This document shows positions 458-64,000 of a DNA stretch of 64,000 nt, in pieces (position 1 is the stretch's first letter; each line of letters begins with the position of its first letter). The stretch is taken from the NCBI GenBank assembly GCA_029339195.1, contig JAPTJF010000005.1, positions 248,001 to 312,000 on the forward strand, read 5' to 3'. The notes beneath the pieces are model-generated. The model was not told where the DNA came from. It did not search any database and saw only the letters and a list, made by a program, of their open reading frames with translations. The position numbers and the translations under genes were made by a program. This DNA comes from Micractinium sp. NFX-FRZ (taxonomy: Eukaryota; Chlorophyta; Trebouxiophyceae; Chlorellales; Chlorellaceae).

Positions 458-3400
458 ATTGAGCTGATTGACCAGGAGGACATCAAGCCGCTGCTGGACG
501 AGCTGGCCCCCGCCATTGCCGCCCACCACGCGCGCGCGCTCAACCCCAGCCACCCGCACCAGCGCGGCACCGCCCAGGGGCCGGACGTCTACATGCAGTC
601 CATCGAGGCAGCCAACCCCTTCCACAAGGTGAGGGTGTGAGCAGGGCGGATGCAGTAAAGGGCAGATGCAGTGAAATGGCAAAAGAGAGCGATCCGTAAG
701 AGGGGATGCAGGTAACGATGTGAGCTGGATGATTCACACGGGGGACTGGATACAAGGAACGTGGGGTGGATGCAAAGGGATCTGCTTTTGCTGCAGGGTG
801 GTGCTGACCGCAGTGAGGGGCCTCGTAGCTGTGCCCGCTTGCCTTCTTCAGCGCCATCCTGCCCCCTCCTTGCTCCGCCCGCAGGCCATGCCGGGCATCA
901 TCCAGTCCGCCATGGACAAGGTGGCGGCAGTGACTGGGCGGCAGTACCACCTGTTTGACTATGTGGGGCACCCGCAGGTGGGTGGGTAGACCCGTGGGTG
1001 CTGTTTTTCAGTTACTTGCTTAGTAACGCTGCTGGGGGCCTGCGGGCTAGTCACGCTCTTTGTGCAGTGCAGCAGAGAGTAGCGGGGGCGCAAGGTGTGT
1101 GGTACTGAAACTCTAGGAAGCTGATGCGTTGTGAAACCCTCCCTTCCACTGCACCCCGGGCAGGCCGAGCACGTCGTGATTGCCATGGGCAGCGGTGTCC
1201 AGGCGCTGGAGGCGGCGGTGCGCAAGCTGACCAGCGAGGGCAAGAAGGTCGGCGTGCTCAAGGTGAGGAGCCCCCGCCAATCAATGCTACACTGCCAATG
1301 CTGAACCTTGCCAATACTAGACTGCATGCATGCAAACGCAAAGCACAGCAGTGCGGCGGGGAGCACGGGTGCATGCAGCCAGTCAAGTTGGCAGCGACTT
1401 GGCTGGGTGGCTGCCTGGCTGGGCCCGCAGGGTCATGCCTGCTCTGCCTGCCACTGCTCCACCCGCGCCACAGCTGCTGCCTCCTTCCGCTTCCGTCTCT
1501 CCCTGTCATTCACCTCGTCCACCCTCCTCCTCCACATAGGTTCACATCTTTCCCCCTTCCGCCGGGCTAACTCTCTGCCCACTCCCCCTCTTTCCCCTCC
1601 CTCCGCCACACAGGTGCACCTCTTCCGCCCCTGGTCTGCGGAGCACCTGCTGGCGGCCCTCCCCGCCTCTGTCAAGCGCATCTGCGCCCTGGACCGCACC
1701 AAGGAGCACGGCAGCGGTGGCGAGCCGCTGCTGGTGGAGGTGGCCTCCTCCTTGCAGCGCGGGCGCCGCCCGGTGGATGTTGTGGTGGGCGGGCGCTACG
1801 GCCTGGGATCCAAGGACTTTACACCCTCCATGTGAGGCGCCCTCATGTTTTGGCTGCGTGCATGGAGGGGATCTGGTGCTGTGGGCAAAGAGAGTGCAGA
1901 CTGGGGGTGTGTGCTACAGCCTGGGATCTGAAGGACTCGACCCCCGTTATGTGAGCAACACAGGAAGGGTCGGCACCATTGGTCTGTATATATTAGCAGG
2001 ACCTGGTGCCTCCCAGGTCCTCGGGCCCCACCTGCCCTCACAAGCATCGCGTCACGCCCTGAATCATTTGTGCCTGCAGGGCCATGGCCGTGTACGAGAA
2101 CCTGGCACAGCCCAGCGTGCAGGACGTGAGGGACTCGTTCACCGTGGGCATCGTGGATGACGTGACCTTCTCCTCTCTTCCCTACGGGGCGGAGCCCGAG
2201 GTGGGTGCAGCCAGCACCAGCGAGCCTCGCGAGGATGGCCTGGGATTAACCTGCCATTTGTGATGTTTTTGAAGAGTTGCGCCCTTCTCCTCCCTGCCCA
2301 ACAACACCGAGCTCGAGGCGGCTGCCCATAGGGGCGTGGCACATGCCCCTGTGCTCCTGCCCCTACCAGCTGCCTGACCAGCTGCACATCCAGCAGCTGT
2401 TTTATTGCCTGGCCAACCCGTCGTGCCTGTCTGAAATGCTTATCCCGTGCAGGTGCTGCCGGCGGGCACCACGGAGTGCCTGTTCTGGGGCATGGGCTCG
2501 GACGGCACCGTGGGCGCCAACAAGGAGGCAGTCAAGATCATTGCCTCCCAGGAGGGCATGAACGCGCAGGTGGGGCGATAAAAATAATAAAGCAAATAAA
2601 AAATATAAATAATGCAAGCCGGAAATGTTTCAAAATTACATTTTTTTTATTGTTTTTTTTTTTTTTTTATTTTCTTGTTATTTTTTCGTTCCTGCAGGCG
2701 TACTTCTCTTACGACGCACATAAGTCTGGTGGCGTGACAGTCTCCCACCTTCGGTTTGGCCCGCACCACATTGACGCCCCCTGGCTGGTGGACATGGCCC
2801 ACTACATTGGCGTGCACCAGCAGGCCTACTGGTCCAAGTGAGTGCCCATCCGTCTTCCTTGCCGCCACGCTGGCTAGTCTTCGGGAAGCGGGCGGGTTCC
2901 GCTCACTCTACCTGGGCGTTCATCAGCGTGTGTGCTACCGAGTCGAGAGCGAGCTGAGCTGCATTGGCAAGTGTGCTGACTGACGGCCCGGTGCCCGCCA
3001 GCCCCTGTCGACCTTCTTCCTTCCCCTCGTGCGCCGCCGCCCTCACCTTTCACACCCGCTCCCGCCGCCGGCACATTCCCGCCCGCCCTGCCGCAGGTTT
3101 GACGTGCTGGCTGGCCTGCGCCCCGGCGGCAAGGTGCTGATCAACGCGCCCTGGAAGACGTGGGAGGAGGTGGAGGCGGCCATGCCGCCCAAGACGCGCG
3201 CACGCGTGGCGGCGCTGCGCCCCAAGGTGCGTGCTGTGCAGCGTGCTGTGTGTGCTGGGCAATGTGCTGTGTGTGTTTAGGGAGCTTTGGGATTGTAGGC
3301 AGCGGGTGAAGGTGCGGCGCTGAGGCAGGTGGGATCTGACAATCTCACTTGACTGCATCCATCTCGCCTCCCAGCCAAACAAGTTGTGGGACTACTACAC

Positions 3401-62200: not shown

Positions 62201-64000
62201 GGCAGCAGGGGCAGCTGGGGCAGCAGGGGCAGCAGGGGCAGCACACAGAGACACGGTTCTCGTGCAGCAACGCACGCCCGGCCAGTCAGCCAGCCGGCGC
62301 TGCCCAGGGTAAACGTGTCAAGGAAATGCCACCCTCAACTCCTCTTCTGTTATACTCTCCCGCCGCCGCACCCGCCGGATGGCACCTGCCCCGAACGCAT
62401 GACATTCCCGCCCCACCCCACCTGCAAACGGCTGACGAAGAAGGGCGCCAGTGGCAGGTCCAGCAGTAGTCCCTCATACAGCGCCCGCCCCAGCACCAGG
62501 CCCAGCGTCTCCAGCGCAGCCAGCCCGCCGTCCAGCCGCTCTGCAGGGGGGCAGGGGGGCGGCGGGCAGGCGGGGCAGGGAGGCTGGGAGGGGCTGGGGG
62601 GGCAGGGCACCTGCGCCAGAGGCAGGCCAGAAGGCTCTCCTAGCTCACCTGCTAGCACTATTTGCACTACATGCACTACATGCACTGTATTAACCGTGTA
62701 CTACGAACATGTACTACTAGCATGTACTACTAAGCACTACTAGCACTAGCACTACATGTACTGTACTAATCTTGAGGCAGCGTGAAGGTCTCACCAGACC
62801 ATCATCCTTACCACACACTCCCCTGCGCCCACCTGCCAGAGGGTTGGGATAGGCGCAGCCGTCGGGCGTGGCGCTGAACAGGCCTCGGTTGGGGTCAAAC
62901 CCCGCCCCCACCACCGCCTCCAGAAACTCCTTCAGCAGTCCGCCCATGTCGATGCCCGCCTCCTGCACAGGCGCCACGTCAGCCACGGTGCCAGGTCAGC
63001 AGATCCAAGAACATGAGCGTTCAGCAGTCCGCCCATGTGCGCGCCCCGCCACCGGCGCAGTACAAGCCAGCTGGCGGGAGGCAGCAGCAGCGCAGCGGGA
63101 GGCGGGTGGAGGGCTGAGATCGGGCATGTAAGCAAGGGCGTGGGATCAAGGGGTGGGAGCAAGGGCACGTGACGCACCTGGAGCCCCTGCTGGTTGATGA
63201 AGGTGAGGGAGAGGCGCGACTTGGCGGAGCTGCCCAGGCGGCCCAGCTGCAGCCATGGGAGGGCAGGGTGTGAGAAAGAGAAGGTGCGAGGGCTGAGGGT
63301 GGGAGGCAGCACCGCGTGGCGCTCCTTGCTTGCGCCATCACACACCCTTGCAGACATGTCCCTGCAGCACAGCACACAGCACAGCATGGCTTAGCACAGC
63401 ATGGCGTGGCATGGCGGGCCGTGCCTGCGACACCGCATCCTCCAGCACGTATCCCCGGCGAATTGTGACCGCCACTGGCCGTGAGCCGCCATCCACCGGC
63501 GCCAAATTGTAGCCGCACCTGCAGGGGCGGGTGCAGCCGGCCGGGCCCAGCGACCATATTCATCAGGGACCATAATCGAGCGGCAGGTTTGGCTGGCCAG
63601 CGGAACGCTACCGCCGCTATTCTCTAACGCAGTGGCATCCCATCCACTGCCCACCTGCCCTGTGGCTGGGCATGCCCCCACACAGTGGCGACACACGCCC
63701 GCTGTCCTCCCTGCTGGGGTCCACCCACCGCTCCTTGTCTTGGTCAATCAGCGCTCGGAACACGGAGACCCGCTCATCAAAGGGCACACACTGAGGCGCC
63801 GCTGTCAAGATGGCCGCCACCGCTGCCGGGCGGGACGCCGCCGCAGCCGTGGCACCCGCCGCTCGTGGGGAGCCTGGAGAATGCGGCAGCGGCCCCGCTG
63901 GGCCGCCCTCGCCGTCTGCTGCAGCCAGCAAGGCACGCACCACGGCAGCCCCGGACACAGGCTGCTGCTGCTGCTGCGAGGGGCCGCCCGAGGGGGCGGT
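59226..64000 (-). CDS. HECT-domain E3 ubiquitin ligase, 5' end outside the window
   Basis: Catalyses ubiquitin transfer through a thioester on its own cysteine. Visible exons in gene order: 64000-63729, 63518-63425, 63246-63178, 62962-62833, 62540-62422, 62075-61961, 61597-61509, 61256-61176, 60895-60780, 60435-60369, 60137-60042, 59627-59551, 59322-59226. The HECT N-lobe starts with [40 protein letters not shown] and [20 protein letters not shown]. The C-lobe includes [36 protein letters not shown] and [13 protein letters not shown]. The catalytic site is [16 protein letters not shown] with the Cys at the end of the penultimate exon. The C-terminal acidic-aliphatic tail (GAGFELS) is intact. 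Upstream sequence ([20 protein letters not shown]) fits the UBE3B/UBE3C or plant UPL6/7 branch. Two introns use GC donors. Substrates cannot be inferred. Confidence 0.95.
62153..62242. repeat. 9-bp minisatellite
   Basis: About ten units of ggggcagca or ggggcagct in a HECT intron (between exons 62540-62422 and 62075-61961). Confidence 0.95.
63010..63060 (-). repeat. Decayed copy of a HECT exon acceptor edge
   Basis: Resembles 62930-62970. On the plus strand both contain ttcagcagtccgcccatgt, 19 bases identical, then diverging c/g-rich sequence and a caggcgc/cggcgcag word. It is a copy of the MGGLLK segment, upstream in gene orientation, inside the intron. Confidence 0.85.

Follow-up and report, generated by a model that had tools for sequence, protein, structure and literature searches.

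Introns in a stretch of the green alga Micractinium sp. NFX-FRZ appear to carry degraded copies of the ends of neighbouring exons. Where do these copies come from, and do they record the origin of introns or their lengthening? The stretch, hereafter the window, comprises 64,000 nucleotides of contig JAPTJF010000005.1 (C5:248001-312000) in an assembly of 66 Mb and 838 contigs. A first-pass annotation, made from its letters alone, had noticed at least fifteen such introns in seven genes and suggested that a window so dense in them would be an unusually clear record of one or the other. We analyzed the window together with 270 kb from four other contigs, 334 kb in total or about 0.5 per cent of the genome.

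Gene models were built with an exon-intron hidden Markov model (HMM) that was self-trained on the sampled sequence, and all of them are predictions. The HMM gave 68 genes and 632 introns, 627 of which were flanked by exon on both sides; the median intron length was 250 nt. Its output matched the exons of the gene PFO that had earlier been read by eye. The acceptor motif was TGCAG, and GC donors made up about 5 per cent. Some genes were merged (two paralogues were fused) or wrongly started (a gene at window position 22004). The proteins nearest to those of the window came from chlorellacean algae. For the ubiquitin C-terminal hydrolase, the best named hits were from Micractinium tetrahymenae (82 per cent), Chlorella ohadii (76 per cent) and C. 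variabilis (72 per cent).

Simple repeats were masked in exon edges and introns, and each edge was aligned with its intron at offsets of 35-320. As a control, the intron was exchanged for a length-matched intron of another gene, with 10 swaps per intron. At a score of at least 100, 75/627 introns carried an exon-edge copy, compared with 5.2/627 under swaps. The counts were 115 vs 30.2 at scores of at least 80 and 43 vs 2.1 at scores of at least 120, so the excess increased with score. At scores of at least 70 they were 159 vs 77.6, about half of the matches being expected from chance. The swapped-intron rate at 100 was 0.83 per cent for the whole sample, or about 1 in 118. The comparison with swapped introns that had been proposed as a check thus gave a clear excess.

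In the window, 16/118 introns in 8 predicted genes reached this score, which bears out the earlier count. The four other stretches gave 18/189, 27/183, 3/88 and 11/49 introns. The window therefore lies inside the range of a patchy, wider pattern and is not special.

Further controls were run on the first 264 kb. With 60-nt exon edges and a score of at least 80, own introns matched at 30/467 donors and 30/469 acceptors, and reverse-complemented introns at 0/467 and 3/469. Swaps match the composition of the genome and not that of each gene; a control with other introns of the same gene agreed with them (5/1315 and 5/1317). Self-matches of whole contigs scoring at least 110 numbered 111 at offsets of 40-300. 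They fell to 29 at 340-600, 14 at 1040-1300 and 12 at 3040-3300.

Each of the 28 window hits scoring at least 80 was compared with 38-418 length-matched foreign introns. For seventeen of them (16 introns, 8 genes), no more than 0.5 per cent of swaps did as well. This set of 16 introns and the 16 that score at least 100 overlap but are not identical. Introns 10616-11266 (1/38 foreign introns as good), 30541-30819 (7/407) and 36591-36918 (9/383) reached 100 and failed the 0.5 per cent limit, whereas introns 38083-38368, 45339-45567 and 60138-60368 passed it with scores of just 80-95. Three cases apparent to the eye (15624-15953, 38864-39129 and 51921-52351) scored 86-94, were equalled by 4-8 foreign introns and are individually insecure. 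Offsets of window hits scoring at least 90 ranged from 72 to 147, plus one doubtful hit at 204, in agreement with the 70 to 150 bases first estimated.

Junction-spanning copies and their decay

The 79 junction hits scoring at least 100 were used as the basis set. It includes C4:8620-9111, which has zero aligned exon bases, and a row at C4:9734 that was kept in the main counts and left out of the short-offset count (78 rows). Thirty-seven hits were on the donor side and 42 on the acceptor side, with offsets mostly of 80-160 bp. Copies lie downstream of donors and upstream of acceptors, as had been noted, and necessarily so for any copy within an intron.

The copied unit contains the splice site and the intron sequence past it. 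In 37 pairs whose alignment ended near the junction, residual similarity was found on the intron side (z = 4.0; 0/400 permutations as high). No residual similarity was found past the exon-side end (z = -0.5, 64 pairs). High-scoring cases aligned across nearly the whole offset or beyond; in older ones the full unit is no longer visible. More than two copies (arrays, with an alignment longer than 1.15 times the offset) were present in 16/79 hits, and the remaining hits resemble single duplications. The second copy lies close by and in direct orientation: the excess lay at short offsets, with almost none in the reverse complement. We conclude that the copies arose by local tandem duplication of genomic DNA across the exon-intron junction.

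Five segments were searched against the whole genome. One was a 1.4-kb stretch of window sequence containing the 5717-5965 copy; the other four came from outside the window and also carried copies. The five returned their self-matches and one neighbouring tandem copy. All other matches were at most 220 bases long; in one family they were checked and were exons of paralogues. No long second copy elsewhere in the genome was found for the five segments, in a search that skipped very common words, and the same search returned no haplotypes or recent paralogues with alignable introns.

Other repeats scoring at least 100 comprised 17 intron-internal hits and 8 intergenic hits at 6 places. The top-scoring intergenic repeat of the window is a 56-bp tandem repeat at 55112-55263, a region predicted to be intergenic.

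Exon-part identity of the 79 copies ranged from about 0.97 down to 0.62, with a median of 0.79. This spread fits a continuing process. Mismatches between exon and copy were nearly even over the three codon positions (220/1136, 236/1126 and 292/1118, or 0.194, 0.210 and 0.261). Gaps in the exon part were blind to the frame, with 64, 27 and 6 gaps of lengths 1, 2 and 0 modulo 3. The copies therefore decay like neutral DNA. Both the intron-side similarity and the frame-blind decay agree with the first-pass proposal of local duplication across junctions followed by decay inside the intron.

Junction offsets also showed no preference for multiples of three (21, 22 and 29 offsets of 0, 1 and 2 modulo 3). 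In contrast, repeats wholly within exons preferred them (22/38). One in-frame 63-bp tandem repeat (40816-40949) lies in a short minus-strand gene of the window (40766-41143) and encodes a charged heptad-like repeat.

GT was kept in 23/31 aligned donors and AG in 23/35 aligned acceptors, a retention about as high as neutral decay to roughly 80 per cent identity permits. In 14/72 cases, splicing at the inner site would preserve the frame and introduce no stop.

The outer splice site had been said always to be the one that keeps the frame. PFO has 4 introns with a copy scoring at least 90, and the ubiquitin hydrolase gene has one intron with copies at both ends. Proteins of four relatives per gene aligned without gaps across the junctions of all five introns, which supports the use of the outer splice sites there. 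Of the PFO relatives, the two most similar (93 and 89 per cent) come from contigs of about 4.5 kb; these sequences probably derive from transcripts, because such short contigs carry the complete protein. The statement thus holds for five introns in two genes, judged from relatives' proteins, and elsewhere rests on gene models. The public C. variabilis PFO protein lacks an exon matching window 3485-3598, which was probably missed in that annotation.

Intron length and intron origin

Introns with a copy had a median length of 333 nt (n = 75), compared with 238 nt for introns without any hit of at least 80 (n = 437; p = 3e-15). After subtraction of the unit, copy-bearing introns had a median of 219 nt. 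The share with a copy rose from 0/82 at 120-180 nt to 22/77 at 300-350 nt. These results supported the view that introns were lengthened by about one unit through duplication, one of the two outcomes that had been suggested.

Three neighbouring paralogues were also compared. Three of their introns carry a copy, and for none of them did the corresponding junction of either other gene have an exon-edge copy of at least 85. The copy-bearing introns measured 295, 333 and 553 nt, against 167/210, 243/357 and 141/450 nt in the paralogues, and were the longest of their set in two of the three comparisons.

Deacetylase-like genes (C1:238106-249334) and P450-like genes (C1:227187-232782, 285399-290761 and 292649-298193), named by eye, are found on another sampled contig; L005-L007 and L011-L012 cover both families. 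DNA matches within the families are 71-93 per cent, and three deacetylase-like intron pairs were unalignable. Because these introns cannot be aligned despite such matches, intron turnover in the deacetylase-like family is fast.

The other suggested outcome was intron origin by tandem duplication. In a new intron born in this way, self-similarity should appear at an offset as long as the intron. Such self-matches were found in 4/627 introns at a score of at least 60 (control 0) and in 2 at a score of at least 80. Of these four, one belongs to a repeat array and one looks like a mis-modelled exon. The remaining two are C1:85819-86154 (score 60) and C2:89539-89831 (score 75), in sample coordinates. 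The top-scoring candidate, C4:9734-9801, follows a motif that we take to be kinesin-like; its next "exon" is unlike the expected continuation and was taken as a gene-model error. Intron origin by tandem duplication was not supported, and no convincingly new intron was found in the sample.

How the copies may have arisen

We consider it probable that short tandem duplications are still arising in this genome, that those spanning a junction are tolerated, and that the intron then lengthens while the inner copy decays. Local origin, tandem geometry, the spanning of junctions, neutral decay and greater length are observed, as is, by homology in two genes, use of the outer site, and the process resembles ordinary short tandem duplication. 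Duplications, mostly of 80-160 bp among the detectable ones, would arise continually, for example when staggered breaks are filled in and end-joined. After duplication of a unit across a junction, the surroundings of the outer splice site would be unchanged, so that normal mRNA could still be made. Such an event would presumably be tolerated and the intron would gain one unit. The inner copy of exon edge and splice site would then decay as neutral intron sequence. Duplications may occur inside introns at an equal rate. Junction events would seem frequent in part, at least, because of their exon copy, whose conservation keeps them recognisable for longer than intron-internal or intergenic events.

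Simulations of uniform duplication were compared with an age-matched set of 68 of the 79 rows (offsets of 75-165 and at least 10 aligned exon bases). Several results weigh against our explanation. More than 60 nt of exon were copied in 14/79 hits (12/68 in the age-matched set), compared with 45-60 per cent in the simulations; among exons long enough to allow it, 10/49 exceeded 60 nt and none exceeded 90. The exon part was longer than 60 nt in 1/21 hits with an identity of at least 0.83 and in 11/47 below that. At offsets of 75-165, 8 intron-internal events were observed and 8.3 expected at a high indel rate, but 17-31 were expected at lower intron indel rates. With tolerance restricted to units carrying no more than 60 nt of exon, the expectation becomes 15-51 and an excess at junctions remains. 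Intron-side homology was visible in 21/58 cases, compared with 52-77 per cent in the simulations. Finally, one paralogue comparison runs in the opposite direction (333 nt with the copy, 357 nt without), and the introns of paralogues have diverged beyond the reach of an empty-site alignment, which leaves only their lengths for comparison.

Real decay was harsher than in any simulated setting, and the internal expectations are therefore probably too high. On these simulations, junctions may or may not be hot spots of duplication. For the bound of 60 nt, we prefer selection against long exon copies, which would be usable exon ends; a mutational bias is a possible source as well. The split of exon parts by age does not favour slow selective loss, and the score cut-off itself tends toward the same pattern. 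An apparent avoidance of offsets below 80 at junctions was dropped as mostly a detection effect (5/78 observed vs 9-13 per cent simulated with uniform lengths), although Fisher's test against intron-internal repeats gave p = 0.0002.

A different source of the same copies, with the same decay and lengthening, would be breakpoints concentrated at splice junctions, for example through breaks linked to chromatin or transcription. The bounded exon part (15-60 nt in most of the 79 hits) speaks for it, as does the fact that this part barely tracks unit length (rho 0.28) whereas the intron part does (0.67). So does the ratio of 82 junction to 17 intron-internal hits, 4.8, since uniform simulations made before age matching gave 1.65-2.0 when observed unit lengths were used and 2.6-2.9 when lengths were uniform; after age matching, the internal count stayed low in most settings. 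However, that count was as expected at the high indel rate with all units tolerated, and actual decay was even harsher than in that setting. The donor and acceptor sides are nearly equal, and selection can produce the exon bound. We regard concentrated breakpoints as rather unlikely, though well ahead of the other alternatives.

If the copies served as alternative exons, alternative splice sites or mutually exclusive exons, the retained GT and AG and the 14 frame-keeping inner sites would be accounted for. Retention is, however, what neutral decay would leave, no coding constraint was seen in mismatches or indels, and at the junctions tested no such insertions occur in the relatives' proteins. 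A function of this kind is very improbable. Chance or low-complexity matching in GC-rich sequence fits several weak hits (80-95) equalled by several foreign introns and about half of the hits at 70 or above. With simple repeats masked, an excess that rises with score and self-matches that drop with distance, it is rejected as a general explanation by the swapped-intron control. Dispersed intron-generating elements (introners) or retrocopied exons, in favour of which nothing was found, have hardly any probability left. The five segments searched genome-wide had no dispersed long matches, and duplication of the intron sequence beside the junction argues against an mRNA source.

Related cases have been described. 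According to PMC8355091, short tandem duplications are the most frequent kind of short (<100 bp) insertion in the human genome and are linked to the repair of staggered breaks, for example by fill-in of 3' overhangs by CST and Pol alpha-primase. The algal repeats are likewise local, direct and adjacent. Unlike those described there, they are decayed fossils at junctions, mostly of 80-160 bp, with breakpoints too old for a repair signature. In the potato RdRp gene, as described in PMC4974935, a duplicated unit spans the 3' end of an intron and the start of the downstream exon, and there is also an 83-bp duplication within the first intron. The unit crosses an intron-exon boundary as in the alga. 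In that account a new intron was formed, whereas in the alga existing introns became longer, in 75/627 introns and not in one gene.

Intron gain through tandem duplication of an AGGT-bearing exon segment, the Rogers model, is well established as a proposal (PMC3443670). It shares with the algal case a tandem duplication that involves splice sites. Unlike in that model, the algal offset differs from the intron length except in the four unconvincing candidates. Relatives of Chlamydomonas have long introns without a short-length peak, with medians of 198-343 nt, similar to the 250 nt of the alga; PMC8226300 leaves the cause open, whereas in the alga a process that adds length is visible. In the literature searched, by titles, abstracts and some passages, neither this pattern in green algae nor intron lengthening on such a scale was found described.

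In about one ninth of introns, after subtraction of the chance rate, individual additions of length are visible, can be counted and measured, and can be put into a rough order of age. The ancestral sequence of each event is preserved in the adjoining exon, and therefore the tolerance of splicing to duplicated sites and the neutral decay of splice sites become measurable. For the long introns of green algae, which are unexplained, this provides something concrete to build on. More speculatively, junction-spanning tandem duplication might be a main source of intron length in the lineage. Splicing would weed out units with more than about 60 nt of exon early, perhaps because their inner copy becomes a usable exon end, and shorter ones would slip through, giving stepwise growth and fast turnover. 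We regard this as less likely than not. If true, it would be part of the reason why green algal introns are long.

Copies in the window

Individual copies are given in window coordinates, followed in brackets by the duplicated edge, the intron, the offset, the score and the foreign introns that matched as well. PFO, on the plus strand, contains four. The acceptor-side copy at 1454..1594 is part of a repeated array (edge 1527-1673, intron 1263-1613, offset 73, score 166, 1/349; exon-part identity 0.78), and its junction is free of gaps in the proteins of 4 relatives. The donor-side copy at 1902..1955 retains GT (edge 1783-1836, intron 1832-2079, offset 119, score 127, 0/372). A second donor-side copy, with GC at the donor, lies at 2283..2325 (edge 2166-2208, intron 2201-2452, offset 117, score 105, 0/382). 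The acceptor-side copy at 5834..5900 has lost its AG (edge 5955-6018, intron 5717-5965, offset 121, score 138, 1/376). The last three junctions are also backed by relatives' proteins.

In the ubiquitin C-terminal hydrolase gene, on the plus strand, intron 44940-45219 carries a donor-side copy with GT at 44991..45050 (edge 44894-44949, offset 97, score 154, 0/418) and an acceptor-side copy with AG at 45086..45140 (edge 45217-45271, offset 131, score 145, 0/418). The former junction is backed by the proteins of 4 relatives and the latter by relatives' proteins as well. A weak donor-side copy on the same strand lies at 45436..45482 (edge 45316-45361, intron 45339-45567, offset 120, score 80, 1/378; exon-part identity 0.65).

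Other plus-strand copies on the acceptor side were found at 11151..11218 in a gene that looks kinase-like by eye (edge 11244-11309, intron 10616-11266, offset 93, score 132, 1/38, few introns being length-matched) and at 15363..15412 (edge 15483-15531, intron 15148-15496, offset 120, score 101, 1/359). Donor-side copies on this strand lie at 24107..24145 (edge 23980-24018, intron 24025-24345, offset 127, score 115, 1/399) and 54009..54119 (edge 53915-54031, intron 53994-54256, offset 94, score 106, 1/408). Weaker donor-side copies are at 15704..15746 (edge 15602-15646, intron 15624-15953, offset 102, score 94, 4/377), 36701..36747 (edge 36554-36602, intron 36591-36918, offset 147, score 107, 9/383) and 51994..52044 (edge 51881-51930, intron 51921-52351, offset 113, score 93, 8/223).

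A young-looking tandem copy of the acceptor region 22045-22162 occupies 21896..22012 on the plus strand (offset 149, score 288). It is absent from the automatic count; the gene finder begins the gene at 22004, within the copy. In a model made by eye, the ATG is at 21760 and the first intron spans about 21812-22126. This start is an example of how such copies mislead annotation.

On the minus strand, acceptor-side copies were found at 29892..29925 (edge 29773-29806, intron 29796-30069, offset 119, score 110, 0/408), 32802..32880 (edge 32693-32773, intron 32752-32979, offset 107, score 114, 1/371) and 63020..63087 (edge 62931-63002, intron 62963-63177, offset 85, score 131, 0/350). A poorly conserved one lies at 29367..29508 (edge 29228-29365, intron 29300-29678, offset 143, score 108, 1/300; exon-part identity 0.62). 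On the donor side, one copy or several form a repeated array at 33221..33354 (edge 33315-33426, intron 33071-33389, offset 72, score 179, 1/386), and another copy is at 60267..60289 (edge 60377-60399, intron 60138-60368, offset 110, score 95, 1/373).

The minus strand also carries a tiny predicted gene of five exons at 46627-47421. It encodes a cysteine-rich protein of 61 residues, which we presume to be metallothionein-like.

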